Notes under the pieces: model-generated
Told to the model about the DNA's origin: nothing
Databases searched by the model: none
The model's input: the letters and a program-made list of their open reading frames with translations, nothing else
Made by a program: the position numbers and the translations under genes
Shown: positions 28,162-47,883 of the stretch, one piece after another
Layout: every line of letters begins with the position of its first letter
How positions within the stretch are numbered: the stretch's first letter is position 1
Source of the DNA: Roseobacter sp. MH60115
GTDB lineage: Bacteria > Pseudomonadota > Alphaproteobacteria > Rhodobacterales > Rhodobacteraceae
Direction: 5' to 3'
Length of the DNA: 64,000 nt
Assembly (NCBI RefSeq): GCF_015644665.1
Contig: NZ_JADOBQ010000004.1
Span: 379,501-443,500, forward strand

Positions 28162-29399
28162 TTGAAATCGCAGGACAAACCTATTCTCTGACGGATCCGC
28201 AGGTGATGGTCATTTTGGCCAGCGCCGGTGTCGTTCTGGTGATCCTGGTGCTGTTGGTTATGACGGTTCGGGCGGCGCGCCGGAGTGCTGCCGTTTCCGC
28301 CCCATTGATGCAGCAAATTGGCCTTCTGGGTCAGCATGTGCAGCAATTGAGCGCGGGCCAGGAACAGCTTCGCGGCGGGTTGCAGACAGTATCTGACACC
28401 CAGGCGACTGCACAGGCGCAGGTCATCCAGACGGTAGAGGCCCGCCTTGCCGCCGTGCAACAACAGATGCAGGACCGTCTGGCGGATAACGCCCTGCGCT
28501 CGGCCCGCTCCCTTTCGGAAATGCAGGAGCGGATGAAGGAGACGCTGCACGGGTCCTCTAAGCAGACAACCACATCACTGACGCAGCTGCAGGAGCGGTT
28601 GGCAGCCATCGACAAGGCGCAGGACAATATCACCAAGCTCTCGGGCGATGTCCTGTCGCTTCAGGATATTCTTAGCAACAAACAGACGCGCGGGGCCTTT
28701 GGCGAAATTCAGCTGCGCGATATCGTCTCCAAAGCCTTGCCGAAGGACAGTTTTGCGTTGCAGCACACGCTGAGCAACGGCAAACGTGCGGATTGCCTGA
28801 TCCACCTGCCAAATCCGCCCGGCCCGATCGTGATCGACAGTAAATTCCCGCTTGAAGCTTACGAAGCCTTGCGTGCGGCAGAGACCGATTGGGAGTTGAA
28901 AGAGGCGGTGGCCAAGATGAAGGTCGCGGTGACAAAACACATCAGCGACATCGCGGCAAAATACATCATCGACGGTGAAACAGCGGATGGGGCGTTGATG
29001 TTCCTGCCGTCGGAGGCCGTCTACGCCGAACTGCACGCCAATTTTCCCGATTTGGTGCGCAAGGGCTTTGACGCCCGGGTCTGGATCGTGTCCCCCACCA
29101 CCTGCATGGCGACGCTGAACACCATGCGCGCCATTCTCAAGGATGCCCGGATGCGCGAGCAGGCGGGGGCGATCCGGTCGGAACTGTCCAAGCTGGTGGC
29201 GGATGTGGACCGTCTGGGGACGCGGGTGGGCAACCTTGACCGGCATTTCAATCAGGCCTCGAAAGACATCGAGGAAATCAAGATCAGCGCGGATAAGGCG
29301 GGCAAACGGGCGCACCGTCTCGATAACTTCGACTTTGAAGAGATCAGCCCGGATGATGACACGGCAAACGTCGTGCCACTCGCCAAGCAGGACGTCTAA
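28158..29399 (+). CDS. rmuC: DNA recombination protein RmuC
   Basis: The 413-residue protein has one N-terminal transmembrane helix (about 17-37), a coiled-coil stretch rich in Gln/Ala/Glu (about 50-165) and the RmuC nuclease-like domain (about 170-385) with [34 protein letters not shown] and [12 protein letters not shown]. RmuC limits inversions at short inverted repeats in E. coli. ATG at 28158 is coupled to mutL; upstream in-frame sequence lies inside mutL. It converges on uxuA, with the two stop codons overlapping. Confidence 0.95.
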
Positions 29400-30577
29400 C
29401 CCGCGCAGGCAGCCATGATACCGCGTAGTTCCGCCAGCCCGCGCATCCGCCCGATCAGCGGATAACCCGGCATGCTGCCCGCCTCCCTGTCATAGAGCAG
29501 TTCCTGCCCGTGATCCGGGCGCATCGGAATTTGCCAATCTGACCGGCCCGCGTCCTTGCGCCGGGCCTGTTCCTGCATCAGCGCGCGGATTGTGGCAACC
29601 ATATCGGTGTCGCCTTCCAAATGCGCCGCTTCAAAGAAATCCGGTCGGTTCGGTTCACCGCCCAGCCTCTTCGTGTTGCGCAGATGTACGAAATGGATGC
29701 GTGGGCCAAGCCGTTCCACGAACCCCGGTGCGTCGAAATCCGACCGCACGCCCAGCGACCCGGTACAGAGGGTGGCCCCGTTGGCGGGCAAATCAACGGC
29801 GGTGAGCGTTTCGGCATAGTCATCTGTTGTGGACATCACCCGCGGCAAGCCGAGTAGCCCAAAAGGCGGATCATCCGGATGGCAGCACAGGCGCAGGCCG
29901 AGGTCTTGGGCAACGGGCGCAACTTCGGCCAGAAAATCGATCAGATGGGCGCGTAGCTTGTCCGGGCTGATGCCATCATATGTGCCCAGTCTTGCGGCCA
30001 CATCCGGCAAGCTCCAGGTATCGTTTGCACCGGGCAGACCGGCGATGATGTTGCGCTGCAGGCTCAGGCGTTCGGCGCCTGACATCGCCTGAAACTGCGC
30101 GCGGGCGGCCTCGCGCATCGCGGCGGAATAGTCCTCAGGCGCCGAATTGCGGGCGAGGATGTGCAGGTCAAAGACAGCGAAATCCAGCAGGCGAAACAGC
30201 ATCGCATTGCCGCCATGCGGCTGCGGTGCCCGGAGCGATGTGCGCGTCCAATCGAGGATCGGCATGAAGTTGTAGCACACCGTTTTGATCCCGCGTTTGG
30301 CCAGGGCGATCAGGCTGGATTTATAGTGCTCCAGATGCTGCTGCGCCTCCGGTCCCTGCGTCTTGATCTCTTCGGAAACGGGCAGGCTTTCGACAACGTC
30401 CCAGGCAAACCCGGCGCTGCTCAGCATCTCTTGCCGTTTGGCGATGTCGTCTTCGGTCCAGGGCATGCCGGGGGCGATGTGATGCAGGGCGGTGACGATG
30501 CCCTCCACCCCGACCTGATGCAGGTCGCTCAGGTCAATGGTGTCGTGTGGTCCAAACCAGCGCCAGCATTGCTTCAT
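29396..30577 (-). CDS. uxuA: Mannonate dehydratase
   Basis: The 393-residue enzyme dehydrates D-mannonate to 2-keto-3-deoxygluconate in glucuronate breakdown. It has the usual start MKQCWRWFGPHDTI, then GVEGIVTALHHIAPGMPW, the metal-site region LRLCCHPDDPP, and the C-terminal MRPDHGQELLYD and GYPLIGRMRGLAELRG. Length equals E. coli UxuA. Start at 30577 overlaps the stop of the upstream Gfo/Idh/MocA gene (ATGA). It is the last gene of a four-gene operon starting at 33664. Confidence 0.96.
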   Translation of the reverse strand: MKQCWRWFGPHDTIDLSDLHQVGVEGIVTALHHIAPGMPWTEDDIAKRQEMLSSAGFAWDVVESLPVSEEIKTQGPEAQQHLEHYKSSLIALAKRGIKTVCYNFMPILDWTRTSLRAPQPHGGNAMLFRLLDFAVFDLHILARNSAPEDYSAAMREAARAQFQAMSGAERLSLQRNIIAGLPGANDTWSLPDVAARLGTYDGISPDKLRAHLIDFLAEVAPVAQDLGLRLCCHPDDPPFGLLGLPRVMSTTDDYAETLTAVDLPANGATLCTGSLGVRSDFDAPGFVERLGPRIHFVHLRNTKRLGGEPNRPDFFEAAHLEGDTDMVATIRALMQEQARRKDAGRSDWQIPMRPDHGQELLYDREAGSMPGYPLIGRMRGLAELRGIMAACAG

Positions 30578-31626
30578 GGTTGCCATCCTTCATAAAGCGG
30601 GTGTGCGGCATCGAGCGGAAGCGCCACCCGGTCGCCACTGCGGGCCGCGTGATAGATCGCCGTTACCAGAGCGACAGAGGCCGCACCCTCTTCCAGTGAA
30701 ACGGCATGGCTACCCTGTCCTGCCATCTCTTGTGCGATGGCTGTCAGAAAGCCTTCGAACCCAATGGGTTCGGGTGCCGTTACGGCCAGACAGGTATCCA
30801 CCTTGTGCTGATCGTCGGGGGTGCGGGCGACGAACTGCCAGTTGGCCGCGCCGGGGGCATAGGGCGTCGTGGCGGAGGTTGCGGTCAGACGCTCGAACAC
30901 GAAACGGATGCGGGTTTCGTCGGTCGCCGCCCCCAGCGTGATGCTGCTGGTGCAGAGCGCGCCATTTTCCATCTGGAAACTGATCGCCGCGCAGTCTTCT
31001 GTTTCGATGGGGTTCACCCGCGTTGTCGTCATGGCCGACAGGTTGGCGACCGGCCCCATGAAATGGGTCATCAGATCATGGTTGTGAATGGCGTGGCCCA
31101 GCACGGCACCGCCCTGCTCCCCGGCCCATGTCCCGCGCCAGGGCACGGCGTAGTAGTCAGCGCCGCGCGACCAATGGGTCTCGATCGCGCCCACCTGCGG
31201 TGCGCCGGTCAGCCCGGCGGCCATCAACCCGCGCAATTGCGCCAGGGCCGGACCCCAGCGATATTGGAACACCGGAAACACGCGGCGTCCGCTGTCTGCT
31301 GCCGCTTTGCGGATGCGGTCCACATCCTTCATGGAGGTGGCCAGCGGTTTTTCACAGATGACATGTTTGCCAGCAGACAGCGCCTGCAAGGTCACAGGCA
31401 CATGCAGGTGAGGCGGGAGGCAGATATCGATCAGATCGATCTGCGGATCGTCCAGCGCCGCTTGCACCTCTGTTTCCACGGCAAAGCTGTCGCCCGCCCG
31501 GATGCTCTCTGCGCGGGCGGCGTCCTGATCCACGAGAGTGTTCACCGAAAAAAGATCCGGCAACGCGCGGTAGGCTTCCAGATGTTCACGCCCAATGCCA
31601 GCACCGAGGATGGCGACGCGGATCAT
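30574..31626 (-). CDS. Gfo/Idh/MocA family oxidoreductase 1
   Basis: The 350-residue protein has the N-terminal Rossmann motif VAILGAGIGREHLEAY and the catalytic-site motif CEKP (in KHVICEKPLA, near residue 95), typical of NAD(P)-dependent sugar or inositol dehydrogenases. The C-terminal alpha/beta substrate domain includes GHAIHNHDLMTHFMG. ATG at 31626 is chosen because it overlaps the upstream stop (ATGA); the sequence before it is not conserved. Its substrate is not predictable. Position directly before uxuA suggests a hexuronate or a derivative. Confidence 0.9.
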   Translation of the reverse strand: MIRVAILGAGIGREHLEAYRALPDLFSVNTLVDQDAARAESIRAGDSFAVETEVQAALDDPQIDLIDICLPPHLHVPVTLQALSAGKHVICEKPLATSMKDVDRIRKAAADSGRRVFPVFQYRWGPALAQLRGLMAAGLTGAPQVGAIETHWSRGADYYAVPWRGTWAGEQGGAVLGHAIHNHDLMTHFMGPVANLSAMTTTRVNPIETEDCAAISFQMENGALCTSSITLGAATDETRIRFVFERLTATSATTPYAPGAANWQFVARTPDDQHKVDTCLAVTAPEPIGFEGFLTAIAQEMAGQGSHAVSLEEGAASVALVTAIYHAARSGDRVALPLDAAHPLYEGWQP

Positions 31627-32630
31627 GGGGCCGTGCCTTCCGCCATGGCCTGTGCGGTCAGGGCCAGTTCCATCACCGTAAAGCAATGCCGCTGTGTCAT
31701 CGCGGTTTCGGTCCGGTTTTGGATGTCATGCGCCAGTCGTGCGAAGTAGGGCAAACCGGCCCCGCTGGCGTCGATTTTCTCACAGCGCGTGCCATTGACC
31801 AGCAATAAGTGATCGGTGCCGTCAGATCCGCCGACATCGACATATTTGCGCAGCTCGATGTAGCCTTCGGTGCCCAGGATGGTCAGCCGCCCGTCGCCCC
31901 AAGTGGGCAGCGCATCGGGCGTGTACCAATCCACGCGGATGTAGCCCGAGGCCGTGGTACTGCGTATGGAAATCTCCCCAAAATCCTGTAATCCCTGATC
32001 GGCCGGGTTGGCGTGATTGGCGACCATGGCATAGGCGACATCTGCCTCCTGCGAGCCGGTGAAGTGCAAAAACTGGTCGATCTGGTGGGAGCCGATATCC
32101 GTTAAAATACCGCCATAGCGCTCGCGCTCAAAGAACCAGCCGGGCCGCTTGGCGCGGTTGAGCCGGTGGGGGCCAAGACCTGCCGTATGCACAACCTTTC
32201 CAATCGCGCCCGCCTCGACCAGCTCGGTCGCGCGGGTCACGGCGGGCACCTCGAAGCGTTCCGAGAAGTTGACAGACCAGATGCGGCCTGTATCTGCCAC
32301 GCAGTCCTTGATTTCCTGCAGCTGGGCCAGTGTGGTGCAGCCGGGTTTATCTGTCATCACATCCATGCCCTGCTGCATGGCGCGGATCGCGAGGGCGGCC
32401 CGGTCGGCGGGGATGGCGGACACCAGTGCCAGATCGGCGCCGCTGGCAAGCGCCGCCTCAAGGCTTTCAAAGCGGGGCAGGTCGGGGAACCTTTTGGTGA
32501 ACCCGGCAAGCGTTTCGGGCGTTCCGTCCGTCCAGTAGCCAAGGCAGGTCGCGCCGGTTTCCAGCATGTTCTGCGTCATGCCAAAGATGTGCCGGTGGTC
32601 GAGACCCAGAGCGATGAAGGAGAGAGTCAT
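31623..32630 (-). CDS. Gfo/Idh/MocA family oxidoreductase 2, DKP variant
   Basis: The 335-residue protein has a less canonical N-terminus (LSFIALGLDHRHIFGMT instead of a GxGxxG loop) and carries TDKPG where relatives have EKP. The lysine is kept, but the preceding acid is Asp. The C-terminal domain has GGILTDIGSHQIDQFLHFTG, a common feature of the family. Start and stop each overlap neighbouring genes by four bases. The altered nucleotide loop may mean a different cofactor mode or a structural role. It is one of three tandem family members. Confidence 0.87.
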   Translation of the reverse strand: MTLSFIALGLDHRHIFGMTQNMLETGATCLGYWTDGTPETLAGFTKRFPDLPRFESLEAALASGADLALVSAIPADRAALAIRAMQQGMDVMTDKPGCTTLAQLQEIKDCVADTGRIWSVNFSERFEVPAVTRATELVEAGAIGKVVHTAGLGPHRLNRAKRPGWFFERERYGGILTDIGSHQIDQFLHFTGSQEADVAYAMVANHANPADQGLQDFGEISIRSTTASGYIRVDWYTPDALPTWGDGRLTILGTEGYIELRKYVDVGGSDGTDHLLLVNGTRCEKIDASGAGLPYFARLAHDIQNRTETAMTQRHCFTVMELALTAQAMAEGTAP

Positions 32631-33664
32631 GTCGGTGTCACTTCTGTGCGTTCTCCGGAGGCGTGTGCCCGTTCCATGGCGTCGATGACCCGGTGTGCTT
32701 CCAGAGCGCTGGCGCCAGAAGCAAGCGGGGTCTGCCCGGTTGTGACGCAGGTTGCAAAATCTTCAAGGATGGTTTGGTGCCAGTCATGGGTAAAGGCCAT
32801 GGGGTCCGCGCCGCCCCCGGTGCTTGCCGCTGCGCCAAATGTCTCCACCCGACCATCCAGATGGGTAAGGGTCAGGACACCGGATGCCAGATGCGCGCTC
32901 GCCCGCGTTCCCTGTATGGTCAGGCTCTCGGCCTCGCCCGGAAAAGCCGCCGTCGTCGCGGTCAGATTTCCGAACGCGCCGCTCTCCATGTCGAAAACCG
33001 CGCTGGCCCAGTCTTCGGCCTCGAGGTCATGCAGCGGGGTTTTTCCCATCATAGCCTGCAGGTTGCGGATGGGACCCAGCAGCCAAAGCGCCAGATCGAG
33101 CGTGTGAATGGCCTGATTGATCATCACCCCGCCGCCATCGCGGGCATAGGTGCCGCGTCCCGGCGCATCGTAATAGGCCTGATCGCGCCACCACGGCACG
33201 CGGATATCCACGGTGGCGATATCCCCCAGCGCGCCTGCGTCCAAAAGCGTCTTGAGCTGTTGTGACGCGGCACGGGCGCGGTGCTGGAATACGATCCCAA
33301 GAGGCACCTGCGCGCGTTCGCACTGCGCAACGATAGCTGTTGCCGTCTCCAATGTCCGCTCGATGGGTTTTTCCATCAGGATCGGTTTGCCCGCCGCGCT
33401 GAGCGCCGAGACCAACTCCTGGCGCGCGTCGGGTGGTGTGGCGATGATCACGGAATCCACCGTGTTGTCTTGCGCGATCTGCTGCACCGTTTGCGCAACT
33501 TGAACGTCATAGCCAAGGGCGGTTTTTGCCTTGTCTGCAAACGCCTGCGCACGGGTCGGATCACGGCCCATGACGGCGGCCAGTTCGATCCCTTTTGCGG
33601 AATGCTGGATCGCCGCCAGATGTGTATCCGCGACCATGCCGAGGCCGATCAAAACAGTCTTCAT
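32627..33664 (-). CDS. Gfo/Idh/MocA family oxidoreductase 3
   Basis: The 345-residue protein has the Rossmann start VLIGLGMVADTHLAAI and the MEKPIE motif near residue 95. The substrate domain shows GGVMINQAIHTLDLALWLLG. I chose ATG at 33664 because GGGAGGGG lies just upstream and the frame before it crosses the promoter region. It is the first gene of the uxuA operon and is divergent from uxaC, with about 95 bases between the starts. Function within uronate metabolism is inferred only from position. Confidence 0.9.
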   Translation of the reverse strand: MKTVLIGLGMVADTHLAAIQHSAKGIELAAVMGRDPTRAQAFADKAKTALGYDVQVAQTVQQIAQDNTVDSVIIATPPDARQELVSALSAAGKPILMEKPIERTLETATAIVAQCERAQVPLGIVFQHRARAASQQLKTLLDAGALGDIATVDIRVPWWRDQAYYDAPGRGTYARDGGGVMINQAIHTLDLALWLLGPIRNLQAMMGKTPLHDLEAEDWASAVFDMESGAFGNLTATTAAFPGEAESLTIQGTRASAHLASGVLTLTHLDGRVETFGAAASTGGGADPMAFTHDWHQTILEDFATCVTTGQTPLASGASALEAHRVIDAMERAHASGERTEVTPT

Positions 33665-33737
33665 ATCCCCTCCCGATTGGGGCAACACTTGCAGGAAAGA
33701 TCGGATAAGGCCAAGCAAAAGATGCACAATCCGCAAA

Positions 33738-33751
33738 GCGTGGTATCACGC
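33738..33751. promoter_or_regulatory. Candidate operator palindrome in the uxaC/oxidoreductase control region
   Basis: GCGTGGTATCACGC is a perfect dyad (arms GCGTG and CACGC, spacer GTAT) 9 bases before the ATG at 33760 and 74 bases from the divergent start at 33664. It has the size and symmetry of a GntR/LacI-type half-turn operator. No binding protein can be assigned. Confidence 0.4.
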
Positions 33752-33759
33752 GGTACGGC

Positions 33760-35142
33760 ATGAGGATCAGGGGGACAGCAGTGCAACATCTGACAGGAAC
33801 GGCGGCCACGCTTTACGAGGAAATCCGGGGTCTGCCGATTGTCTCGCCCCATGGGCATTGCGCGCCGGAATGGTTTGCGACGGATGATCCCTTTCCGGAC
33901 CCTGCGACCCTCTTGGTCGTGCCGGATCACTATGTGTTTCGGATGCTCTATTCCCAGGGCGTCAGCCTTGCCGATCTCGGCATTGGCGCGCCCGGCAAGG
34001 GGGCTGACCCGCGCGCGATATTCCGGCTGTTTGCGCGGCATTGGCCATTGTTTCTGGGCACACCTTCAAGGTTCTGGATGAGCTATGTTCTGACCGAAAC
34101 GCTGGGGATTGAGACGCCCTTGTCCGAAGAAACGGCGGATGAGATTTACGACCGGGTTGCCGAGAAACTTGGCGACCCGGCTTTTCACCCCCGCGCGCTG
34201 TTTGACCAATTCGGGATCGACGTGCTGGCGACGACGGATGGGGCGCTGGATGATCTGGCGCATCATCAGGCCATCACTGACAGCGACTGGAACGGGCGGG
34301 TGATCCCAACCTTTCGCCCGGATTCGGTGCTTGACCCCAGCGACCCGGATTTCGCGAAAAATCTGGCCCGTCTTGCCATGCGCACGGGAGAGGACGTGAG
34401 CAGCTTTGACGGTTTCCTTGCCGCCCTGCGCGCCCGCCGCGCCTTTTTCAAGGCGATGGGAGCCACGGCAACCGATCATGCGATCGAAGCGGTCCATACC
34501 GAATGGCTGGAGGATCCCGAAGGGATCTATCAGCGGCTGCGCAAGGGCATGGGGTCAGACGACGATGCGCGGGCCTTTTACGGTCACATGCTGATCGAGA
34601 TGGCGCAGATGTCTGTTGAGGACGGGTTGGTCATGCAGATCCACGGCGGCAGCAGGCGAAATACCAATGCCGCTGTTATGGATCAGTTTGGCCGTGACAA
34701 GGGCGCGGATATTCCTATTGCCGTGGATTGGGTGCGCGGGTTGGAGCCGCTATTGAACCGGGTGGGGAACACACCCGATTTCACCCTGATCCTCTTCACG
34801 CTGGACGAGACCACCTATGCCCGGGAACTGGCCCCGATGGCCGGGCATTGGCCCTGCCTGCGGATTGGTCCGCCCTGGTGGTTCCATGACAGCCCGGCGG
34901 GTATTGCGCGCTATTTTGACCAGGTGGTGGAGACAGCGGGATACTACAATCTGGCCGGATTCAATGATGACACGCGGGCGTTTCTGTCGATCCCGGCGCG
35001 GCATGATCTGTGGCGTCGCGGTGTCGCGGTGCATCTGGCAGGGCAGGTGGCGCGCGGCGCCTTTGACCTGAGCGATGCACGCATGCTGGCACCCTTGCTG
35101 GCGACCGATCTGGCGCGAAACACCTATCGGCTGGATCGCTGA
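33760..35142 (+). CDS. uxaC: Glucuronate (uronate) isomerase
   Basis: The 460-residue enzyme interconverts glucuronate with fructuronate and galacturonate with tagaturonate. Visible motifs are LPIVSPHGHCAPEWF (metal-binding His), DVLATTDGALDDL, VIPTFRPDSVLDP, MQIHGGSRRNTN and IGPPWWFHDSPAGIARYFD. Length is close to E. coli UxaC. ATG 33760 lacks a ribosome binding site, while GTG 33781 has AGGGGGA just upstream and may be the true start (453 residues). The stop shares one base with the next gene's ATG (TGATG). Confidence 0.95.
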   Translation: MRIRGTAVQHLTGTAATLYEEIRGLPIVSPHGHCAPEWFATDDPFPDPATLLVVPDHYVFRMLYSQGVSLADLGIGAPGKGADPRAIFRLFARHWPLFLGTPSRFWMSYVLTETLGIETPLSEETADEIYDRVAEKLGDPAFHPRALFDQFGIDVLATTDGALDDLAHHQAITDSDWNGRVIPTFRPDSVLDPSDPDFAKNLARLAMRTGEDVSSFDGFLAALRARRAFFKAMGATATDHAIEAVHTEWLEDPEGIYQRLRKGMGSDDDARAFYGHMLIEMAQMSVEDGLVMQIHGGSRRNTNAAVMDQFGRDKGADIPIAVDWVRGLEPLLNRVGNTPDFTLILFTLDETTYARELAPMAGHWPCLRIGPPWWFHDSPAGIARYFDQVVETAGYYNLAGFNDDTRAFLSIPARHDLWRRGVAVHLAGQVARGAFDLSDARMLAPLLATDLARNTYRLDR

Positions 35143-36359
35143 TGGGACGGATTTTGCACATCGGGGTCGGCAACTTCTGTCGTGCCCATCTGGCCGACTA
35201 CACACAGGACGCTGGCGGCTGGCGGATCACCGGGGTCAGCCTGCGGTCTGCGACTGTCCGTGACGGGCTGCGGGCGCAGGACTATCGCTATGGTCTCGCC
35301 ATTCAGGGGCAGGCGGTCAAACCGATCACCGTTTTCGAGCACGTGCTGGTCGCGCCGGAACACCCGCGCGCCGTCTTGCAGGAGATCGCGGCACCTGACG
35401 TTCAGATCATCTCAATCACGGTGACGGAAAAGGGCTACCATCTGACATCGGACAATCAATTGGATGTCGCCGATCCCTTGATTGCGGGCGATCTGGCTGG
35501 TGGCGACCCGCGCACGGTGATCGGCTTTCTCGCGCGCGGGTTGGCCGAGCGGCTGGCACCGGTGACCGTGCTGAGCTGTGACAACCGCGCGGCCAATGGT
35601 GATGTGTTGCGCGCGGCTGTTTCAGAGTTTGCCGCGCGTGCAGGGCTCAGCATTGACTGGACGCAAGCCAGTTTTCCCAACAGCATGGTGGACCGGATCA
35701 CGCCCGCCACGTCGCAGGCCCTGTGTGATGCGACCGGTGATCCGATGGCGGTGCCGACCGAACCGTTCCGGGAATGGGTGATCGAGGATAGCTTTGCTGG
35801 TCCCCGCCCCGATTGGCCGGATGTGCAATTCACCGATGATGTGGCACCGCATGAGATGCGCAAACTGCGGATGCTGAACGCGGCGCATTCGATGCTCGCC
35901 TATGCCGGGACGCTGGCGGGGCATACCTATGTGCATGAGGCGATGGGTGATCCGACCCTGCGGCAGGCGGCGCGGGATATCATGGCAGAAGCCGCCCGGA
36001 CCCTGACGCCGGACATGCAGGCCTTGGCACCGGCATATGCCGACGCGCTGATTGCGCGGTTCGACAATCCGCACATCAACCACAGCCTGCGGCAGATCGC
36101 GATGGATGGCAGCCAGAAGCTGCCCTACCGGATGATCGACAGCATCCGTGGCTTACAGGAGCAGGGGCATCCCGCGCCTGCTCTGGCGTCTGGTGTCCGC
36201 GCATGGATCACATTCTGCCGTCAGGAAGTGGCGGAGGGGCGGGATCTGCAAGACCCGCTGGCGGTGCAGATTGCCGAGATCATCCGCACGGGCAAAGCCG
36301 ACGACGCGCTGCTACAGCTGATCGGCGCGGATGATCTATCGCAGGCTATTTTGGGATGA
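35142..36359 (+). CDS. uxuB: Mannitol-dehydrogenase-family hexuronate reductase (UxuB-like)
   Basis: The 405-residue protein has the family's Rossmann start ILHIGVGNFCRAHLADY, the middle signature VTVLSCDNRAANG followed by SFPNSMVDRITPAT, and the catalytic-lysine region MRKLRMLNAAHSMLAYAG. UxuB reduces fructuronate to mannonate and UxaB tagaturonate to altronate. No second family member is seen, so this one may serve both or favour fructuronate. It is about 75 residues shorter than E. coli UxuB and begins almost directly at the nucleotide loop. It overlaps the convergent kdgK end by 14 bases. Confidence 0.88.
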   Translation: MGRILHIGVGNFCRAHLADYTQDAGGWRITGVSLRSATVRDGLRAQDYRYGLAIQGQAVKPITVFEHVLVAPEHPRAVLQEIAAPDVQIISITVTEKGYHLTSDNQLDVADPLIAGDLAGGDPRTVIGFLARGLAERLAPVTVLSCDNRAANGDVLRAAVSEFAARAGLSIDWTQASFPNSMVDRITPATSQALCDATGDPMAVPTEPFREWVIEDSFAGPRPDWPDVQFTDDVAPHEMRKLRMLNAAHSMLAYAGTLAGHTYVHEAMGDPTLRQAARDIMAEAARTLTPDMQALAPAYADALIARFDNPHINHSLRQIAMDGSQKLPYRMIDSIRGLQEQGHPAPALASGVRAWITFCRQEVAEGRDLQDPLAVQIAEIIRTGKADDALLQLIGADDLSQAILG

Positions 36360-40890: not shown

Positions 40891-42395
40891 ATCACTGCCC
40901 CGATCTGCCAGGGAACGAATTCATAATCGCCCAGGCCCTGAGCTTCGGACTTGGTCATCTCGCCACTGGCGACCTTCAGGAAGAGGTTGTAGATTTCGCG
41001 CCCCTTCTCCTCGACCGTGGTCCCTTGGGAGAGGATCGTGCCCGCGTCCACGTCCATGTCATCTGCCATGCGCTGGGCCATCTGTGAATTTGTCGCGACC
41101 TTGATGGTCGGGCTGGGTTTGGAGCCAAAGGCGGAGCCGCGCCCGGTGGTGAAACACACCAGATTGCAGCCTCCGGCGATCTGACCGGTGACGCTGGCCG
41201 GATCGTATCCGGGGCTGTCCATGAAGGTGAAACCGCGTGCTGTGACGGGTTCGGCGTATTTGTAGACGCCCATCAAGGGGCTTGTGCCGCCTTTGGCGGC
41301 AGCGCCCAGTGATTTTTCGAGGATGGTGGTCAGACCACCAGCCTTGTTGCCGGGGGAGGGGTTGTTGTCCATCGAGCCCTTGTTGCGGGCGGTGTAATCC
41401 TCCCACCAGTGGATGAGGCCCACCAGTTTTTCACCGATCACGCGGTCGGCGGCGCGGCGGGTGAGCAGGTGTTCCGCGCCGTAGATTTCGGGCGTTTCGG
41501 CCAACACGCCGGTGCCCCCTTGGGCCGCCAGCAGATCGCAGGCGTAACCCAGGGCAGGGTTGGCGGTGATGCCGGACCAGGCGTCAGAGCCACCGCATTG
41601 CAGGGCCACCTTAAGCTCCGAGGCCGGGCAGGGTTCGCGCGTGGCCTGATTGGCCAGCGGCAACATGGCGGTGATCTTGCCGATGCCCATCTCGACGGTT
41701 TTGCGCAGCCCGGCCACGGATTGGATGTTCATCACTTGAAAGCTTGGACCCTGTTTCAGGCCATAAGCATCAAGCAGCCAGTCGATCTGGTTGATCTCAC
41801 ACCCCAGCCCCACCATCAGCACGGCGGCATGGTTGGGGTGGCGCGCATAACCCCACATCACACGTTGCAGCGCCTCGAACCCGTCCCCGGCATCGGCCAT
41901 GCCGCAGCCCGTGCCATGCACAAAGGCAACGACCCCATCCACATTGGGATAATCGGCCAGCACCTCGGGCGTGAAATGCGCGGCAATCATCCGCGCGGCG
42001 GTGGCGGAACAATTCACCGAGGTCACAATGGCGATGTAATTGCGCGTGCCCACCTGGCCGTTTTCCCGCCGATACCCCATGAAACTGTCGCGCTGGTCTT
42101 CGGGCACGGGCGTGACCGGGCGCAGGTCGGTGGCATAGTCGTAATCGGCTTGGGTATTGCGGAATTCGACGTTCTGCGTGTGCACGTTATCGCCCGCCGC
42201 AATGTCATCCGCCGCGTAGCCGATCACCTGCGCGTATTTGCGAATGGCCTCCCCCTTGGCGATGTCCCGGGTTGCGATCTTGTGCCCTGAGGGGATCAGC
42301 GCGCGGGTGGTAACACTTTCGAAGGCCACACCGACCTCCAGCGCGCGGGTGGCGGTCACAACGTTATCGGCGGGATCAAGACGGACGATGTCCAT
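40887..42395 (-). CDS. uxaA: Altronate dehydratase
   Basis: The 502-residue enzyme converts D-altronate to 2-keto-3-deoxygluconate. The N-terminal SAF domain (about 1-90) contains IPSGHKIATRDIAKGEAIRKYAQVIG. The large C-terminal UxaA/GarD domain shows GYRRENGQVGTRNYIAIVTSVNCSATA, GTGCGMAD, ALQCGGSDAWSGITANPALG and CFTTGRGSAFGSKPSPTIKVATN. Length equals E. coli UxaA. It lies 10 bases after the upstream PhyH gene in the TRAP operon. With UxuA in the other operon, both hexuronate branches are covered. Confidence 0.95.
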   Translation of the reverse strand: MDIVRLDPADNVVTATRALEVGVAFESVTTRALIPSGHKIATRDIAKGEAIRKYAQVIGYAADDIAAGDNVHTQNVEFRNTQADYDYATDLRPVTPVPEDQRDSFMGYRRENGQVGTRNYIAIVTSVNCSATAARMIAAHFTPEVLADYPNVDGVVAFVHGTGCGMADAGDGFEALQRVMWGYARHPNHAAVLMVGLGCEINQIDWLLDAYGLKQGPSFQVMNIQSVAGLRKTVEMGIGKITAMLPLANQATREPCPASELKVALQCGGSDAWSGITANPALGYACDLLAAQGGTGVLAETPEIYGAEHLLTRRAADRVIGEKLVGLIHWWEDYTARNKGSMDNNPSPGNKAGGLTTILEKSLGAAAKGGTSPLMGVYKYAEPVTARGFTFMDSPGYDPASVTGQIAGGCNLVCFTTGRGSAFGSKPSPTIKVATNSQMAQRMADDMDVDAGTILSQGTTVEEKGREIYNLFLKVASGEMTKSEAQGLGDYEFVPWQIGAVM

Positions 42396-42404
42396 GACAG
42401 CTCC

Positions 42405-43352
42405 TCAGGCGCAGAAGGGGGCATCGCTTTGCCAGCGATGGATCGGGATATGAGCCCCGCCGGCAAGCTCTGCCCGGGTCTCTTCCCACATCTGCCGCCA
42501 TGTACGCCAGTCGGTCAAGGCCGTCTCCGGCCGTGCGGCGCTGCGGGCGACGAAATCGGGAAAATGCGCGCGGCCGGTGGGTTGGCCGGTTACATTGTAG
42601 CGCAGATCAAAGGACCAGCGGAAGGCATCGGTGCCATTGGGCAGCGAGGCATGTGGCGTGAGCGGATGCAGCAGCACGATGCCTCCTGCACGGACGGGCA
42701 GGGGCAGGGCCTGCGCGGGGTCGATGAACCCATCAGCGATGGCGGTCTGGGTCTTTGGGCAGTGTGGCAGCATGGTGTCGGGTGTGCCCGGCATGACCTG
42801 CAGGCATCCGTTTTCCTCCGTCGCGTCCGTCATGGCGATCCACACGGTAACCATCTCTGTCTGGTCGGCTTCTTCCAGACCGACACCACGATCCTGATGC
42901 CAGTCCGTCTGGGTGATATGGGCGCGGATTTCACTTTCCTGAAGTGCAGGACGGGGCGGTTTGATCCGCAGATGCTGGATCGGGTTTGACGTGATCTCAG
43001 GCCCGATCAGGGCCTCGACAACGTCCAGAATGGCGTGGCAAGTCACGAGGTCAAAGACCGCTGGGCCGAAATGCATCGGCGTGTCTGCAGTAATCTCATC
43101 CCCCGGTAAGCTGATGTCCATCGGTTGGAACCAATCACATCCGGCCTCATAGGCGTTCAGCAGTTTTTGCCAGAAATCCTGCTGCATGACCTCCTGTGGC
43201 AGCAGGCCATCTGCGACCCAACCGTCGCACAGGCTGTCCAGCAGCGCGGCATATTCGCCTTCAACCTGCGCCCTGACCTCTTGCGGCACCACGTCTTCCA
43301 CCACCAGATAGCCATCGGTGGCAAAGGCACGACGTTGGGCATAGGTCAGCAT
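42405..43352 (-). CDS. Phytanoyl-CoA dioxygenase (PhyH) family protein 2
   Basis: The 315-residue protein has the start AFATDGYLVVEDVV, the Fe-binding TDWHQDRGVG (His and Asp near residue 150), and the distal LLHPLTPHAS with a following Arg in FRWSFDLRY. These fit an Fe(II)/2-oxoglutarate oxygenase. Its loop LRYNVTGQPTGRAHFP is seen in sugar- or osmolyte-linked PhyH proteins as I recall, not in phytanoyl-CoA hydroxylase itself. It is the first gene after the TRAP permeases, so it may act on the imported compound first. Confidence 0.87.
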   Translation of the reverse strand: MLTYAQRRAFATDGYLVVEDVVPQEVRAQVEGEYAALLDSLCDGWVADGLLPQEVMQQDFWQKLLNAYEAGCDWFQPMDISLPGDEITADTPMHFGPAVFDLVTCHAILDVVEALIGPEITSNPIQHLRIKPPRPALQESEIRAHITQTDWHQDRGVGLEEADQTEMVTVWIAMTDATEENGCLQVMPGTPDTMLPHCPKTQTAIADGFIDPAQALPLPVRAGGIVLLHPLTPHASLPNGTDAFRWSFDLRYNVTGQPTGRAHFPDFVARSAARPETALTDWRTWRQMWEETRAELAGGAHIPIHRWQSDAPFCA

Positions 43353-43362
43353 TTTACATTCC

Positions 43363-44988
43363 TCAGGGTAAGAGCAATGAGACGATCGGAGGCCAGATCA
43401 GCAGCACCGACAGGGCACAAAGCTGGATACCGATAAAGGGCAGGAACCCTTTGAAGATATCCGTCAGGCTGATGTGCGGCGGTGCCACGGATTTCAGGTA
43501 GAAGGCGGCAGGGCCAAAGGGCGGACTGAGAAAACTCACCTGCATGTTCATACAAAAGACCACGCCGAACCAGATCGCCACATGGCGGGGGTTCAGCTCG
43601 CCAAAGACGCCGATTTCCTCGATGGGAAGGCGCTGCACGATGGGCAGGAAGACCGGGATGATCAGCAGCACGATGCCGACCCAATCCATGAAGGCCCCCA
43701 TGAAGAGCAAAATTACCATCATTGCGAGGATGATCCCCATGGTTGGCAGATCGGAGCCGACGATAAAATCGGCGACATAAACTGGCCCGCCCGCGATGGT
43801 GTAGGCACCCGCGAGGGCCGCGGCCCCGATGGTCACCCAGATGATGGTTCCGGTGGATTTCAACGTGCGCATGAGGCTGTCCCAGACCAGCTCGAACGAT
43901 GCCTCCCCCCGGCAGATGGCGATCACCAGAACGGCCAGCGCGCCCATGCCCGCCGCTTCGGTGATGCCGGTGATACCGCCGTAAATCGAACCCATGACAA
44001 CGCCGATGACGACGATGGGCGGCACGAGACCCTTGCCCATCGACCAGCCCAGGGCCGTGCGCGCCTTGCCCAGAACCGCGAACATCATCACGAAAGACAG
44101 CGCCACGGCCCCGCCGAACCATGGCAGCCAGTCGGCGGTGCCATAGGCGATGGCGGCCCCGGTATTGCCCGCGTTCTGGCCGGAGAGCTCAAAGAAAAGA
44201 GCCCGCAGGAAGAGTGCCGTGCCAAAGCCCGCAACCAGGACACAAAGGAAGGCGAGGAAGAGTTTGGCTTTCTCCATGCCATAGGGCTCACCCTCAACAG
44301 GGTCGGGGAGCGGCGCATCCTGCGGACGCAGCTGGGTGCGGATGATGATGTAGAGGATGATGAAACTGGCCAGCATGAAGCCGGGCAGGAAGGAGGCGGT
44401 GAAGAGCGCCTTGATCGAGGTTTCCGTGATCAGCCCGTAGATGATCAGAACAATGGAGGGCGGGATCATGGTGCCGAGCGAACCGGAGGCGCAGATGGTG
44501 CCGATGGCGAGGTTCTGGCTGTAGCCCAGGCGCAGCATCTGCGGCAGGGCGATCAGACCCAGCAGCACCACTTCGCCGCCAATGATGCCGGACATCGCGG
44601 CCATGATCACCGCCATGATCGAGGTTACGATGGCGATGCCGCCGCGGGTGCGGTTCAGCCAGACGTTCAGCGAGGAATACATATCCTTGGCAATGCCCGA
44701 ACGTTCCAGCAAGGCCGCCATGAAGATGAAAAGCGGAATGGATATGAGGACATAGTCCGTTAAGAGCCCGTATATTTTCTGCGCGAGAATGTTGAGCGGC
44801 CCCGCACCGGGCCTGCCGGTCAGAATGCCGTCGCCAAAGGTCCAGGGCGCGGTCAGTAACGCGGGTTCGAACTTCATCACCAGCACCAGAACGGCGAGGA
44901 TGGCAGAGGCAAAGCCCAGCGGCATGCCGATGGCCAGCAAAAGGATCAGGCCCAGCATGAGGACCAGTGAAATTGTACCGATATCCAT
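43363..44988 (-). CDS. TRAP transporter large permease (DctM)
   Basis: The 541-residue inner-membrane protein is the DctM subunit of a TRAP importer: GMPLGFASAILAVLV at the N-terminus, LFIFMAALLERSG, GIIGGEVVLLGLIALPQM, and GASGSLGTMIPPSIVL-type ASGSLGTMIPPSIVLIIYG. It is longer than classic DctM (about 425) because of a cytoplasmic or periplasmic insert between about residues 230 and 310, as in the mannitol/chloroaromatic-type TRAP systems. Its ATG shares one base with the small-permease stop (TGATG). Confidence 0.94.
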   Translation of the reverse strand: MDIGTISLVLMLGLILLLAIGMPLGFASAILAVLVLVMKFEPALLTAPWTFGDGILTGRPGAGPLNILAQKIYGLLTDYVLISIPLFIFMAALLERSGIAKDMYSSLNVWLNRTRGGIAIVTSIMAVIMAAMSGIIGGEVVLLGLIALPQMLRLGYSQNLAIGTICASGSLGTMIPPSIVLIIYGLITETSIKALFTASFLPGFMLASFIILYIIIRTQLRPQDAPLPDPVEGEPYGMEKAKLFLAFLCVLVAGFGTALFLRALFFELSGQNAGNTGAAIAYGTADWLPWFGGAVALSFVMMFAVLGKARTALGWSMGKGLVPPIVVIGVVMGSIYGGITGITEAAGMGALAVLVIAICRGEASFELVWDSLMRTLKSTGTIIWVTIGAAALAGAYTIAGGPVYVADFIVGSDLPTMGIILAMMVILLFMGAFMDWVGIVLLIIPVFLPIVQRLPIEEIGVFGELNPRHVAIWFGVVFCMNMQVSFLSPPFGPAAFYLKSVAPPHISLTDIFKGFLPFIGIQLCALSVLLIWPPIVSLLLP

Positions 44989-45887
44989 CAGTTGGATCCT
45001 TTGGACTGAATGCTGCCGCGTGTGACGTCGAGGTCGCCGGTGCCGTCCGCGCCGACGGCGGCCTTGATCCGCTCCAACTCGTCTTGGTCGATGTCGTCGG
45101 CAGCGGTATGGATCACCGGCTCGGCGTTCCAGTCGGAGACCAGATTGACAACGGCCTGAAAAGCCACAAGCACGATCACCAGCAAGACCATGGGTTTCAG
45201 CGTGGCCGGAATGGGCGGGTCAAAGGCGGTTCCGAATGTTTCCCACCGGTAAAACTTGTCGAAGGCCTCGCCGTAGCCGCCATAAACGAGGAAGAAGGCG
45301 AAGGTCACGATCAGCAGCGTGGAGATGCAGTCGCAAGTGCGCTGCAAGGCGCGGGGCAGCATGTCATAGAGCAGAAAGATGCGAATGTGGCTGCGTTGCT
45401 GCATGGCGTAGAGCCCGGCGCAGAGAAAAACGAAACCAGCCAGCCAGAGCGAGAGTTCATTGGCCCAGAGGGTTGGCGCCTCGAAGACATAACGCAACAC
45501 CACCTCGTAGATCATCACAGAGCAGAGCAGGACAATCAGCATCATGGTCAGCCGCCCGATGAAAACGGCAAGGCGGTCCAGCGGTCGCCAGCTTTCGAAT
45601 TCCATGGGCGCGCGGCGGACAGTGCGCACACCGATGAAGCCGAAGATCGGCAAGAGCAGCAGCGTGATCCAATCCACCATGTCGGCGTAACCGCCAAAAA
45701 GCCCGCCCATTTCGGGCGTCACGTCGATGCGTCCGAAAAGCGCGCTGAGCTTGTCAAATTGCGATGGATCCTCGGGGGGAAACCACGAGAGCGTAAAGGC
45801 GGGAAGATGCCATGTCAGCCACGCAGCACAGACGATGAAGGCGAGCGGTACAAGCCATTCGATAAGGCTTCCGGATTTTTCCTGCAT
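44988..45887 (-). CDS. TRAP transporter small permease (DctQ)
   Basis: The 299-residue protein contains the four-helix DctQ core (about residues 105-260) with the signature VVLRYVFEAPTLWANELSLWLAGF. An N-terminal extension adds two more helices (about 10-28 and 70-86), so it is roughly 100 residues longer than usual, matching the oversized DctM partner. The C-terminus is acidic and soluble. It follows dctP after a 93-base gap that holds a strong hairpin with a T-run. Confidence 0.92.
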   Translation of the reverse strand: MQEKSGSLIEWLVPLAFIVCAAWLTWHLPAFTLSWFPPEDPSQFDKLSALFGRIDVTPEMGGLFGGYADMVDWITLLLLPIFGFIGVRTVRRAPMEFESWRPLDRLAVFIGRLTMMLIVLLCSVMIYEVVLRYVFEAPTLWANELSLWLAGFVFLCAGLYAMQQRSHIRIFLLYDMLPRALQRTCDCISTLLIVTFAFFLVYGGYGEAFDKFYRWETFGTAFDPPIPATLKPMVLLVIVLVAFQAVVNLVSDWNAEPVIHTAADDIDQDELERIKAAVGADGTGDLDVTRGSIQSKGSN

Positions 45888-45934
45888 GGTTCTCCCCCAG
45901 CGGCCGATTGTTGGTGATTGCCCCGGCCAGAGAC

Positions 45935-45965
45935 AAAAAAGACCCCGCCCTTGGCAGGCGGGGTC
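45935..45965 (-). terminator. Intra-operon terminator/attenuator between dctP and dctQ
   Basis: GACCCCGCC (45941-45949) pairs with GGCGGGGTC (45957-45965) around a 7-base loop. On the minus strand the stem is followed directly by six T (A residues 45935-45940). It starts 16 bases after the dctP stop. Partial read-through would give far more binding protein than permease. Confidence 0.88.
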
Positions 45966-45980
45966 CGGTTTCAGGCCAGC

Positions 45981-47003
45981 TTACTGCTTGAGGCCAAGCT
46001 GCTCCAGATAGGCCAGGTGGCTTTCGACAAGCGCCTTGGCTTCCGGTGTGTCGGCGAACTCAGGCCATGTGGCCTGTGCTGCTGCACGGAACTTCGCCAG
46101 CTCTTCAGGTGCCCACTGCGACAGGGTCACTCCTTGCTCACGCAGCTGAGCAGCCGCTTCGGCGTTCTTCTTCTCGAACGTCAGCGCGGTGCGCAGGGCC
46201 AGCGCTTCCATCGCCACTTTCATGATCTTCTGGTGGTGCGCCGGCATCGCGTCAAATACGGCCTTGTTGCACGCCAGGTGATCCGACGGCATCGAGTGGA
46301 AGCCGGGGAAGTTGGCATATTTCACGATGTCATAGAGACCCAGGCCCACGTTGTTGGCGAGGCCCGACGCGTCCGCGCCGTCGATGATGCCGGTTTCAAG
46401 TGCGGTGAAGATCTCGGTGAAGTCCATCACGATGGGCGAGGCGCCCAGCTTTTCGAAGATCTTGGTTTCCATGCCGGGGGGCGAGCGGAATTTCCAGTCT
46501 TTGAAGTCTGCCACCTTGGCGATGGGCTTGGAGGAGGCAAAGCTCTCCTGCCCGTAGACCCACCAGCCGATCAGCTCCATGCCGTATTTGTTGTAGAGCG
46601 GTGCCGCTGCTTCACGACCGCCACCGAAATAGAGCCAGCTCAGCTGTTGATATGGTGTGTCGTAGCCACCCATGATGTCGCCGACGAACTGGAAGGCGGA
46701 GTTCTTGCCGGTCTGATATCCACCACCCGTCATGTCGCAGTCGAGAATGCCCGTGGAGGCGGCATCGAAGGTCTCAACCGATTTCACGACCGAGGATGAG
46801 TAGAACATTTCGACAGCGATCTCGCCGTTCGACATGTCCTGAATGTCCTGCACGTATTGTGCTGCCAGTTTGCCCGAAACCGTTTCAGGCGCATAATGTG
46901 TTTGAATGCGAAGATTGCTTGTTTCTGCCGACGCGGTCAGCGCAGTCGACGCAGCAAAGGCTGCTACAGCGGCGACTGTGGCCGCCTTTTTCATCATTTT
47001 CAT
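45981..47003 (-). CDS. TRAP transporter substrate-binding protein (DctP)
   Basis: The 340-residue protein has a signal peptide (KKAATVAAVAAFAASTALTASA, cleaved near residue 26) and the DctP fold: VETFDAASTGILDCDMTGGGYQTGK, then WKFRSPPGMETKIFEKLGASP with the conserved Arg that binds the substrate carboxylate, and FTALETGIIDGADASG. A uronate or related sugar acid is the likely ligand given the operon. ATG at 47003 has GGAGG five bases upstream. It is the first gene of the operon and is divergent from the GntR gene. Confidence 0.94.
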   Translation of the reverse strand: MKMMKKAATVAAVAAFAASTALTASAETSNLRIQTHYAPETVSGKLAAQYVQDIQDMSNGEIAVEMFYSSSVVKSVETFDAASTGILDCDMTGGGYQTGKNSAFQFVGDIMGGYDTPYQQLSWLYFGGGREAAAPLYNKYGMELIGWWVYGQESFASSKPIAKVADFKDWKFRSPPGMETKIFEKLGASPIVMDFTEIFTALETGIIDGADASGLANNVGLGLYDIVKYANFPGFHSMPSDHLACNKAVFDAMPAHHQKIMKVAMEALALRTALTFEKKNAEAAAQLREQGVTLSQWAPEELAKFRAAAQATWPEFADTPEAKALVESHLAYLEQLGLKQ

Positions 47004-47062
47004 TTTGTCCTCCCAGACGTTGAGCGCACTAAATTTCGGGACTTGAACGCCCCGGTCGTGAT

Positions 47063-47081
47063 TACGCTAACGAAACGTTAG
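47063..47081. promoter_or_regulatory. Candidate GntR operator, CTAACG-AAA-CGTTAG dyad
   Basis: TACGCTAACGAAACGTTAG contains a perfect 6-bp inverted repeat (47067-47072 and 47076-47081) in the divergent dctP/gntR region. Thirteen bases (TACGCTAACGAAA) recur at 49776-49788. On the minus strand a possible dctP promoter, TTGCTT-N18-TAACGT, has its -10 inside the dyad, which would suit repression. Assignment to the adjacent GntR protein is inference. Confidence 0.55.
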
Positions 47082-47193
47082 GCTGAGGCAGGCGCTTCAA
47101 GCAAGAAAATATTTTATTTTTCCCGAATTTCGATATTTTCTTTGATTTTCGAAATTTTGGGCGTAACGCTGGAAGGAGACTGGGAGACTTCAC

Positions 47194-47883
47194 ATGGCCG
47201 CGCAGGATGCCGATATTTTCGACGATATGCGTCACCGGCTGATCACCGGCGAATTTGGATATGGTACCAAACTGCGCGCGGAAAAGCTACGTCAAGATTA
47301 CAATTGCTCGGCCAGTACGGTGCGGGAAGTCCTGTTTCGGCTGTCCACGGTCGGGTTGGTGGATTTTCAGGAGCAGCGCGGATTTAGATCACCATATCAG
47401 TCAGTTGAGCGACAGCATGAGTTGACCCACATGCGGATTTTGCTGGAGACGGAAGGCGCGTGCCTGTCGATACGCTTGGGGGGCGTCGAATGGGAATCCC
47501 GTCTGACGGCGGCCCACCACAAGTTGTCTCACATCGAAACCAGGGTGCGCTCATCGGGCGATCTGATTCCCCTGCTGGGGCTCTGGAGCCGGGCGGAGCA
47601 GGAATTCCACGAGACGTTGATCGACGCCTGCGGGTCTGGACTGTTAAAGCGTACGCATGTGGTAATTTACGAACAGTTTCGGCAACAGCTGGTCTCTGCA
47701 GAGACAAATTACGGGTATTTTCCGGAGAATATCCGCGAGCATCAGGCGATTCTGGATGCCGCTTTGCAGCGCAATGAGGATCTGATGCGCGTCTGTGTGA
47801 ATGACCACCTGGCGCGCAATCTGACACGGCCCCTGCCCCGCAAATCCTACCCTGATGCCTTCGGTAAATCCTCCGCGATATAG
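47194..47883 (+). CDS. GntR-family regulator with FCD ligand domain
   Basis: The 229-residue protein has an N-terminal winged helix (about 5-70) with KLRQDYNCSASTVREVLFRLSTVGLVDFQEQRGF and a C-terminal all-helical FCD domain (about 78-215). The FCD metal ligands fit E/H residues in FHETLIDACGS and FPENIREHQAILDA. FCD regulators of uronate clusters (UxuR/ExuR type) sense sugar acids. GGGAGAC seven bases before ATG supports the start. It is divergent from the TRAP operon, and its 3' end overlaps the convergent denD-like gene by 37 bases. Confidence 0.93.
   Translation: MAAQDADIFDDMRHRLITGEFGYGTKLRAEKLRQDYNCSASTVREVLFRLSTVGLVDFQEQRGFRSPYQSVERQHELTHMRILLETEGACLSIRLGGVEWESRLTAAHHKLSHIETRVRSSGDLIPLLGLWSRAEQEFHETLIDACGSGLLKRTHVVIYEQFRQQLVSAETNYGYFPENIREHQAILDAALQRNEDLMRVCVNDHLARNLTRPLPRKSYPDAFGKSSAI

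Follow-up and report, generated by a model that had tools for sequence, protein, structure and literature searches.

What part two Fe(II)/2-oxoglutarate oxygenases play in a sugar-acid locus is the question raised by a gene cluster of Roseobacter sp. MH60115 (contig NZ_JADOBQ010000004.1, positions 379,501 to 443,500; this whole stretch of 64,000 nucleotides is called the window). In the cluster, the genes of a tripartite ATP-independent periplasmic (TRAP) importer, dctP, dctQ and dctM, are followed by phyH2, encoding an oxygenase of the PhyH family, and by a gene for a sugar-acid dehydratase of the UxaA/GarD family (referred to as UxaA or UxaA-like). A second oxygenase gene, phyH1, lies further along the same run, and genes of hexuronate catabolism adjoin it. 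Roseobacters consume a large share of algal carbon; many algal sugar acids are modified, and to our knowledge the removal of these modifications is not understood. A sequence-only reading of the window had proposed that a modified uronate is imported, unmasked by oxidation and passed into the hexuronate pathway. Comparison with related genomes showed that the recurrent unit is the TRAP importer, PhyH2 as an optional member, and the UxaA-like dehydratase, often with Gfo4, PhyH1, HIBADH and EamA, the uxaC/uxuB/uxuA/kdgK block being a variable neighbour.

Recurrence of PhyH2 between importer and dehydratase

When named genomes were scanned with PhyH2, 41 loci were obtained, of which 21 were alphaproteobacterial, mostly with roseobacter-type names (58–95% identity), and 20 came from Chloroflexi/Anaerolineae (48–50%). 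The closest named locus, with PhyH2 at 95% identity, belongs to an 'uncultured Roseobacter sp.'. Within the order Rhodobacterales PhyH2 was present in 45 of 292 genomes and 23 of 112 genera, and in a class sample of 385 genomes it was found in three, namely MH60115 itself and two genomes of other families. The genus group of MH60115 (g1) also includes a genome, G218, with a contig stretch identical to that of Roseobacter insulae (L007). Stretches around PhyH2 were fetched from 40 of the 45 genomes, excluding MH60115 and four that duplicated contigs of L005–L008, and were combined with the 21 named and the two other-family loci to give 63 loci, or 60 after removal of near-identical copies. Neighbours were labelled using 24 window genes with identity thresholds set by us. 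Synteny was counted by tblastn; simple open reading frame (ORF) calls misframed some high-GC loci.

DctP, DctQ and DctM were all located in 58 of the 60 stretches, and the nearest labelled gene was DctM before PhyH2 in 51 and UxaA after it, likewise in 51. Under a stricter rule (same strand, gap of at most 500 bases), applied to 61 loci including one with a partial PhyH2 (L142), DctM lay upstream in 52 loci, UxaA downstream in 51 and both in 42; because of this direct succession the arrangement goes beyond chance. In 7 loci DctM and PhyH2 are separated by an enolase-superfamily gene, and EamA was found in 57 of the 61. In the two alphaproteobacterial genomes of other families (L119 and L120) DctM again precedes PhyH2, and UxaA does not directly follow: L119 has a DRL-type oxidoreductase (8497–9834; PF21135, with a SAF match, PF08666) between PhyH2 and UxaA, and L120 has Gfo4 next to PhyH2 in a stretch that carries no UxaA. 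At the level of whole genomes of the order, this DctM was present in all 45 with PhyH2 and in 26 of the 247 others, and a UxaA ortholog in 43 of the 45. These counts bear out the observation of the sequence-only reading that a PhyH gene directly follows the TRAP permeases, they show the co-occurrence of PhyH with uxaA and this TRAP type for which it had suggested a survey, and they fit an oxygenase acting near the entry of the pathway.

PhyH2 as an optional cassette

UxaA orthologs were delimited by a break in identity of full-length matches, between at least 73% (71 genomes) and at most 60%. DctM was also found in 71 of the 292 genomes; 65 had both DctM and UxaA, 43 of these with PhyH2, and PhyH2 was absent from 28 of the 71 genomes with a UxaA ortholog. 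Thirty-three further loci were fetched around UxaA or DctM where PhyH2 fell below the cut-off or lay elsewhere, one of which, L142, turned out to carry the partial PhyH2 mentioned above. DctM is followed directly by UxaA, with no PhyH2, in 20 loci (gap below 150 bases in 17). On a quick tree of 85 DctM rows, at least 21 changes of PhyH2 state were counted, and its well-supported branches yielded 16 independent pairs. The same-genus relative L121 has no full PhyH2, and its 292-base gap between DctM and UxaA holds a stretch that matches PhyH2 residues 251–315 at 38–40% identity; this looks like a decayed copy, and PhyH2 has apparently been lost through decay at least once. In view of the 20 DctM–UxaA loci, the repeated changes on the tree and this 3′ remnant, PhyH2 is regarded as an optional cassette in a wider TRAP–UxaA operon. 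PhyH or Gfo genes are missing from relatives that keep the TRAP genes and UxaA, which the sequence-only reading had said would, in combination with a lack of conserved gene order, speak against it; the order, however, is conserved.

All 29 genomes with PhyH1 have a UxaA ortholog. Among UxaA genomes PhyH1 was found in 25 of 43 with PhyH2 and in 4 of 28 without it (p=2e-4, uncorrected for kinship). On the DctM tree 4.5 pairs showed the two oxygenases changing in the same direction and 0.3 in opposite directions, a difference short of significance (median p 0.125). The corresponding pairs with PhyH2 (same/opposite) were 2.1/1.4 for uxaC, 1.8/2.0 for kdgK, 2.2/2.0 for gfo3 and 2.6/2.0 for gfo4. 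Near the PhyH1 slot, a shikimate/quinate-dehydrogenase-like gene (15 loci; for example L017:13443–14264) and a DAO/N-methyltryptophan-oxidase-like gene (8 loci; L017:15148–16257) were noted; one representative of each was scanned and scored below NCBIfam cut-offs. Their presence suggests further exchangeable redox steps.

The two oxygenases

Of the four PhyH genes in the genome of MH60115, two are at this locus. The products of both score above the PF05721 cut-off of 22 bits (PhyH1 122.4 bits, PhyH2 86.1 bits). The motif of PhyH-type oxygenases consists of HxD...H iron ligands and an arginine for 2-oxoglutarate. In an alignment of the window PhyH2 with 69 of 76 available relatives, H152, D154, H234 and R245 were invariant in 70 of 70 sequences; 59 columns in all were invariant, including the basic residues H127, R129, K131, H197, R251 and R261. 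In PhyH1, H124, D126, H209 and R220 were kept in at least 97% of a 39-sequence alignment. Judged from these alignments, complete catalytic residues are retained in both oxygenases.

A structure model of PhyH2 (pLDDT 95.3) was compared with solved structures using Foldseek, and the nearest folds were ThoJ, human PHYHD1, EvdO2 and SnoN, none with a TM-score (query length) above 0.59. EvdO2, SnoN and SnoK, which, partly from their titles, we take to act on sugar moieties, share fold and catalytic residues with PhyH2 and are among its best sequence or structure matches, whereas they serve antibiotic biosynthesis and reach only about 20% identity and a TM-score of about 0.5. For PhyH1 the best PDB sequence matches were a leucine hydroxylase and phytanoyl-CoA-dioxygenase entries, the latter including 7dt0, titled proline hydroxylase.

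Two named activities were rejected. Ectoine hydroxylase (TIGR02408) requires 336.5 bits, and PhyH1 and PhyH2 scored 87.8 and 20.2. In SyrB2-type halogenases the iron-binding Asp is replaced by Ala or Gly; D154 of PhyH2 is invariant, with no such swap.

Relation to hexuronate catabolism

With a match threshold of 1e-20, uxaC was found in 119 of the 292 genomes of the order, and it was commoner in genomes with PhyH2 (29 of 45) than in the others (90 of 247; odds 3.2, p=8e-4; contingency tests uncorrected for kinship). Within the 65 genomes with both DctM and UxaA this excess was gone (27 of 43 with PhyH2 against 17 of 22 without, p=0.28). At the level of loci, uxaC was close by in 13 of 61 with PhyH2 and in 3 of 32 in which the operon lacks it. 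Since 16 of the 45 PhyH2 genomes gave no uxaC match, the product of PhyH2 need not pass through uxaC.

The cluster resembles Ashwell-type hexuronate catabolism (UxaC, UxuB, UxuA, UxaA, KdgK, Eda) in that UxaC and UxuA score above their cut-offs and that KDPG-aldolase-family genes are present (two, elsewhere in the genome). It differs in that the core run recurs with no uxaC, uxuB or uxuA nearby, and in its TRAP importer, its two added oxygenases and a UxaA-like enzyme equally far from E. coli UxaA and GarD. The genome also has two glutathione-dependent formaldehyde dehydrogenases above cut-off, which are generic and are not proof of demethylation.

The idea that a uronate product is funnelled into the hexuronate route was not supported, given the PhyH2 genomes without a uxaC match, the lack of a uxaC excess among operon genomes and the absence of a link on the tree, where informative pairs were few. 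As a candidate, the modified-hexuronate funnel is weakened by those uxaC-less genomes and by the lack of covariation. Of the broader claim of a modified uronate, the tie of an oxygenase to importer and dehydratase stands, and the uronate part is weakened; removal of an O-methyl group is possible, as is oxidative unmasking in general.

Tetronate setting of one locus

One locus, L105 (G141:C1:1722851–1742751), is the sole one in Rhodobacterales in which PhyH2–UxaA lies apart from this TRAP importer; DctM and PhyH1 are together elsewhere in that genome. Directly before PhyH2–UxaA are LtnD and OtnK, which exceed their cut-offs, and an OtnI-like gene, which falls short of its own and overlaps the pair by 4 bases, and a frame between OtnK and OtnI resembles OtnC by eye. 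By its gene content this neighbourhood is a tetronate (C4 aldonate) setting, and L105 is one telling case, not a rule. OtnK matches were found in 4 of 93 loci.

The window itself resembles the D-erythronate/L-threonate pathway (DenD, LtnD, OtnK, OtnC, OtnI) in having a DenD above cut-off, and in L105 PhyH2–UxaA stands behind genes of that pathway. It differs in that the whole 64 kb, searched at 1e-30, gave no match to OtnK or OtnI, and the direct link of PhyH2 to this pathway is seen in one locus. The setting of L105, the DenD gene beside the run in the window and the PhyH2 genomes without uxaC together suggest acids of the aldonic type.

Homologs outside the order

Of 70 PhyH2 sequences, 59 from other sources and 11 from Chloroflexi are cleanly split by three columns alone. 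From this near identity of conserved positions, the chemistry of PhyH2 is probably common to the Chloroflexi homologs. In one Chloroflexi locus (L029), read by eye, the homolog lies between trpS-like and YigZ/IMPACT-like genes, and similar flanking gene clusters occur in many other Chloroflexi loci; several of the isolate names look sponge-derived. A 38% homolog was found on Pantoea dispersa plasmid NZ_CP106661.1 (L118), with a second PhyH, an MFS transporter, a B12-binding radical SAM protein and a TylF-type O-methyltransferase as neighbours, which looks like a small biosynthetic cluster. No DNA pattern match was found in viral contigs.

Proposed role of PhyH2 and alternatives

We tentatively favour, at somewhat less than an even chance, a reading in which PhyH2 is an optional entry oxygenase in a mosaic sugar-acid locus, converting a non-standard, probably aldonic acid into a substrate for the dehydratase. 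It starts from what was observed, namely the order of the genes, their conservation, the behaviour of PhyH2 as a cassette and the intactness of the catalytic residues; for substrate class, order of steps and reaction we infer the following. The DctPQM importer would take up a sugar acid, probably a 2-hydroxy acid of the aldonic type. With Fe(II), O2 and 2-oxoglutarate, PhyH2 would turn an O-alkylated or deoxygenated sugar acid into one compatible with the dehydratase, either by hydroxylation at a deoxy position or by hydroxylation of the O-alkyl carbon, upon which the group would fall off. The UxaA/GarD-family enzyme would dehydrate the imported or converted acid, HIBADH-type and Gfo-type dehydrogenases would adjust its redox state, and PhyH1 with the HIBADH-type enzyme may form a second optional oxidative step. 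Flanking modules (hexuronate, erythronate and IlvD/SDR/FAH) would pass the products to central metabolism.

Several observations weigh against this proposal. Of 93 loci a single one, L105, carries the tetronate link, and it has another TRAP set about 8 kb downstream. An unrelated isomerase could cover the loss of uxaC, and the tree association test had few informative pairs, which leaves room for a weak link. Foldseek found no close solved relative of PhyH2, and those found are too distant to name a substrate. At 20 Chloroflexi loci (L026–L045) with PhyH2 homologs of 48–50% identity, some of them short, none of the other 23 window genes searched was found nearby; with nearly the whole conserved core present in these homologs, this chemistry may lie outside the present pathway. 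The UxaA-like protein is 37.2% identical to E. coli UxaA and 37.7% to E. coli GarD, which leaves altronate and galactarate undecided, and because of this equal distance 'altronate dehydratase' is a family name only here. Finally, DctP scores 1e-12 against 7bbr, about as against the hexuronate binders, and aldonates are not favoured.

The importer and dehydratase were compared with known systems as follows. In a phmmer search of the PDB the best match of DctP was 4pe3 (1.7e-48), followed by 2zzv, which aligns like 7e9y, a construct of the lactate-binding TTHA0766, and by a ketoacid-binding protein; the hexuronate binders 4mhf and 4n15 reached about 2e-14 only. We take 7bbr to be CxaP, a xylonate-type sugar-acid binder. 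DctP being equally far from 4mhf/4n15 and from 7bbr, this sequence evidence is neutral between uronate and aldonate. The TRAP hexuronate transporters (Salmonella STM3169, Bpro_3107/4MHF and Bamb_6123/4N15) are likewise TRAP importers of organic acids linked to sugar-acid genes, and the present DctP is only distantly related to the latter two. According to PMC7660916, 4MHF is a glucuronate/galacturonate binder and 4N15 the template for STM3169; CxaP is referred to in PMC12076931. With the galactarate/glucarate pathway (GarD, GarL, GarR) the cluster shares the nearness of its dehydratase to GarD and HIBADH proteins 34–39% identical to GarR, whereas the dehydratase scores 380.6 against TIGR03248 (galactarate dehydratase), below the cut-off of 730.85, and no GarL-type aldolase was found among the cluster genes scanned. 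The Gfo proteins were also considered as NAD-dependent glycosidases or 3-keto-glycoside enzymes; this was rejected, 8tdi (glucuronide-3-dehydrogenase) being among the weak PDB matches of Gfo1, Gfo2 and Gfo4, the three compared, and several other oxidoreductases scoring better.

The model first suggested for the window, in which a capped hexuronate such as O-methyl glucuronate is imported and uncapped by PhyH with release of formaldehyde, the uronate entering UxaC–UxuB/UxuA/UxaA–KdgK, is rather unlikely. It draws on the adjoining hexuronate genes with confident UxaC and UxuA, on the formaldehyde dehydrogenases and KDPG-aldolase-family genes of the same genome, on the greater frequency of uxaC in PhyH2 genomes across all 292 and on the sugar-acting oxygenases EvdO2 and SnoN among the relatives of PhyH2. 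Against it stand the 16 PhyH2 genomes without uxaC, the vanishing of the excess among DctM–UxaA genomes and the failure of uxaC, kdgK and gfo3 to track PhyH2 on the tree (few informative pairs); moreover, DctP is far nearer to 4pe3 than to 4n15 or 4mhf, and the formaldehyde genes are generic. PhyH2 might instead be a bystander, active in making or altering some other compound, whose gene simply came to settle in the operon and which is dispensable to the sugar-acid pathway. The 28 UxaA-ortholog genomes without it would suit this, as would the Pantoea plasmid and Chloroflexi homologs in their different surroundings, but a gene that occurs in 23 genera of the order and stands next to DctM in 52 of 61 loci would hardly keep this position if the pathway had no use for it, and we consider the bystander case unlikely. 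A slightly smaller chance is given to PhyH2 being a radical epimerase or desaturase of sugar acids, similar to SnoN of nogalamycin biosynthesis, whose new stereochemistry would suit the dehydratase. Stereochemical adjustment is needed in sugar-acid catabolism and SnoN ranks high among the relatives of PhyH2 by fold and by sequence; it stands, however, behind ThoJ, PHYHD1 and EvdO2 (TM-score 0.49), the fold cannot separate hydroxylases from epimerases, and residue evidence for such an activity is lacking. That an ordinary hexuronate cluster has received generic oxidoreductases by chance is highly improbable: every enzyme family present is a common one, but DctM, PhyH2 and UxaA succeed one another in 42 of 61 loci, and DctM–PhyH2 occurs even in L119 and L120 of other families, where UxaA is not directly after.

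Every part of the cluster comes from a known family, and sugar-acid clusters with a linked TRAP importer are of a known kind. In the open-licence papers searched, we recognised no description of a recurring entry cassette that consists of an Fe(II)/2-oxoglutarate oxygenase, and in the excerpted texts of PMC7660916, PMC11668362, PMC7367891, PMC7701263, PMC5770400 and PMC12076931 the operon is not described; there, PhyH is tied to chlorophyll breakdown in SAR86 (PMC7367891) and to antibiotics (PMC7701263). If the entry-oxygenase reading is right, an oxygen-dependent entry step would be added to sugar-acid catabolism. A wider version, in which PhyH2 founds a class of sugar-acid catabolism with an exchangeable soluble oxygenase that uncaps or hydroxylates modified aldonic acids directly after TRAP import, the Chloroflexi relatives acting on these modified acids too, is conceivable and on balance doubtful; if true, it would point to widespread marine compounds not yet tied to a degradation route. 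Relatives with and without the PhyH2 cassette, including the same-genus strain with an apparent decayed copy, offer natural comparisons, and the compound could be sought by comparing their diets.

Gene layout

The genes of the cluster and its flank are listed in table 1. The main minus-strand run extends from 47003 to 36346 (dctP, dctQ, dctM, phyH2, uxaA-like, gfo4, phyH1, HIBADH-type, eamA and kdgK-like); it is followed by a plus-strand pair, uxaC and uxuB-like (33760–36359), and by a second minus-strand run, gfo3–gfo2–gfo1–uxuA (33664 to 29396). The runs are termed operons on spacing and conservation alone. Starts of Gfo1, Gfo3, KdgK and PhyH1 were picked by us inside longer ORFs. All genes named in the sequence-only reading were present with open frames, as seen from ORFs and hidden Markov model (HMM) scans; the EamA transporter within the main run was absent from its list. 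The four-base overlaps that it described were found at three junctions (Gfo4/UxaA, HIBADH/PhyH1 and Gfo2/Gfo3), the remaining junctions having an overlap of 1–14 bases or a spacing of 1–93 bases. Its designation of textbook hexuronate genes holds for UxaC and UxuA, which exceed NCBIfam cut-offs; KdgK-like falls below its cut-off and UxuB-like below both of those for fructuronate/tagaturonate reductase, and the UxaA-like protein is as near to GarD as to UxaA.

Table 1. Features of the cluster and its flank, in window coordinates.
Feature	Position	Strand	Evidence
UxuA, mannonate dehydratase	29396–30586	-	TIGR00695 432.4 bits, cut-off 199.55
Gfo1, Gfo/Idh/MocA oxidoreductase	30574–31629	-	HMM scan, PDB comparison
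Gfo2, Gfo/Idh/MocA oxidoreductase	31623–32630	-	near PDB 3u3x, 2p2s (both named merely oxidoreductases)
Gfo3, Gfo/Idh/MocA oxidoreductase	32627–33664	-	PF01408, PF22725
UxaC, glucuronate/galacturonate isomerase	33760–35142	+	NF002794 493.2 bits, cut-off 387
UxuB-like mannitol-dehydrogenase-family reductase	35142–36359	+	PF08125, PF01232; NF011611 248 bits, below cut-off 603
KdgK-like PfkB sugar kinase	36346–37215	-	PF00294; NF052444 271 bits, below cut-off 400
EamA/DMT-family transporter	37215–38096	-	PF00892
HIBADH-type beta-hydroxyacid dehydrogenase	38098–38985	-	PF03446, PF14833
PhyH1, Fe(II)/2-oxoglutarate oxygenase family	38982–39902	-	PF05721 4.3e-35
Gfo4, Gfo/Idh/MocA oxidoreductase	39889–40890	-	PF01408, PF22725
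UxaA/GarD-family sugar-acid dehydratase (SAF + GD_AH domains)	40887–42395	-	PF20629, PF04295, PF08666
PhyH2, Fe(II)/2-oxoglutarate oxygenase family	42405–43352	-	PF05721 5.4e-24
DctM, TRAP large permease	43363–44988	-	PF06808
DctQ, TRAP small permease	44988–45887	-	PF04290
DctP, TRAP solute-binding protein	45981–47003	-	PF03480 6e-47; PDB phmmer
GntR/FCD regulator, divergent from dctP	47194–47883	+	PF07729, PF00392
DenD-type D-erythronate dehydrogenase, flanking	47847–48830	-	NF043036 355.4 bits, cut-off 325
GarR/LtnD-type dehydrogenase HIBD2, flanking	48827–49702	-	PF03446; below NCBIfam cut-offs; 39% to E. coli GarR
Flanking SDR, IlvD-type dehydratase, FAH-type hydrolase, 2-hydroxyacid dehydrogenase, enolase-superfamily dehydratase	49822–55482	+	

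The last set in the table resembles a route of non-phosphorylated aldonate breakdown. Elsewhere in the window, a heparinase II/III-like protein (PF07940) is encoded at 9440–11191.

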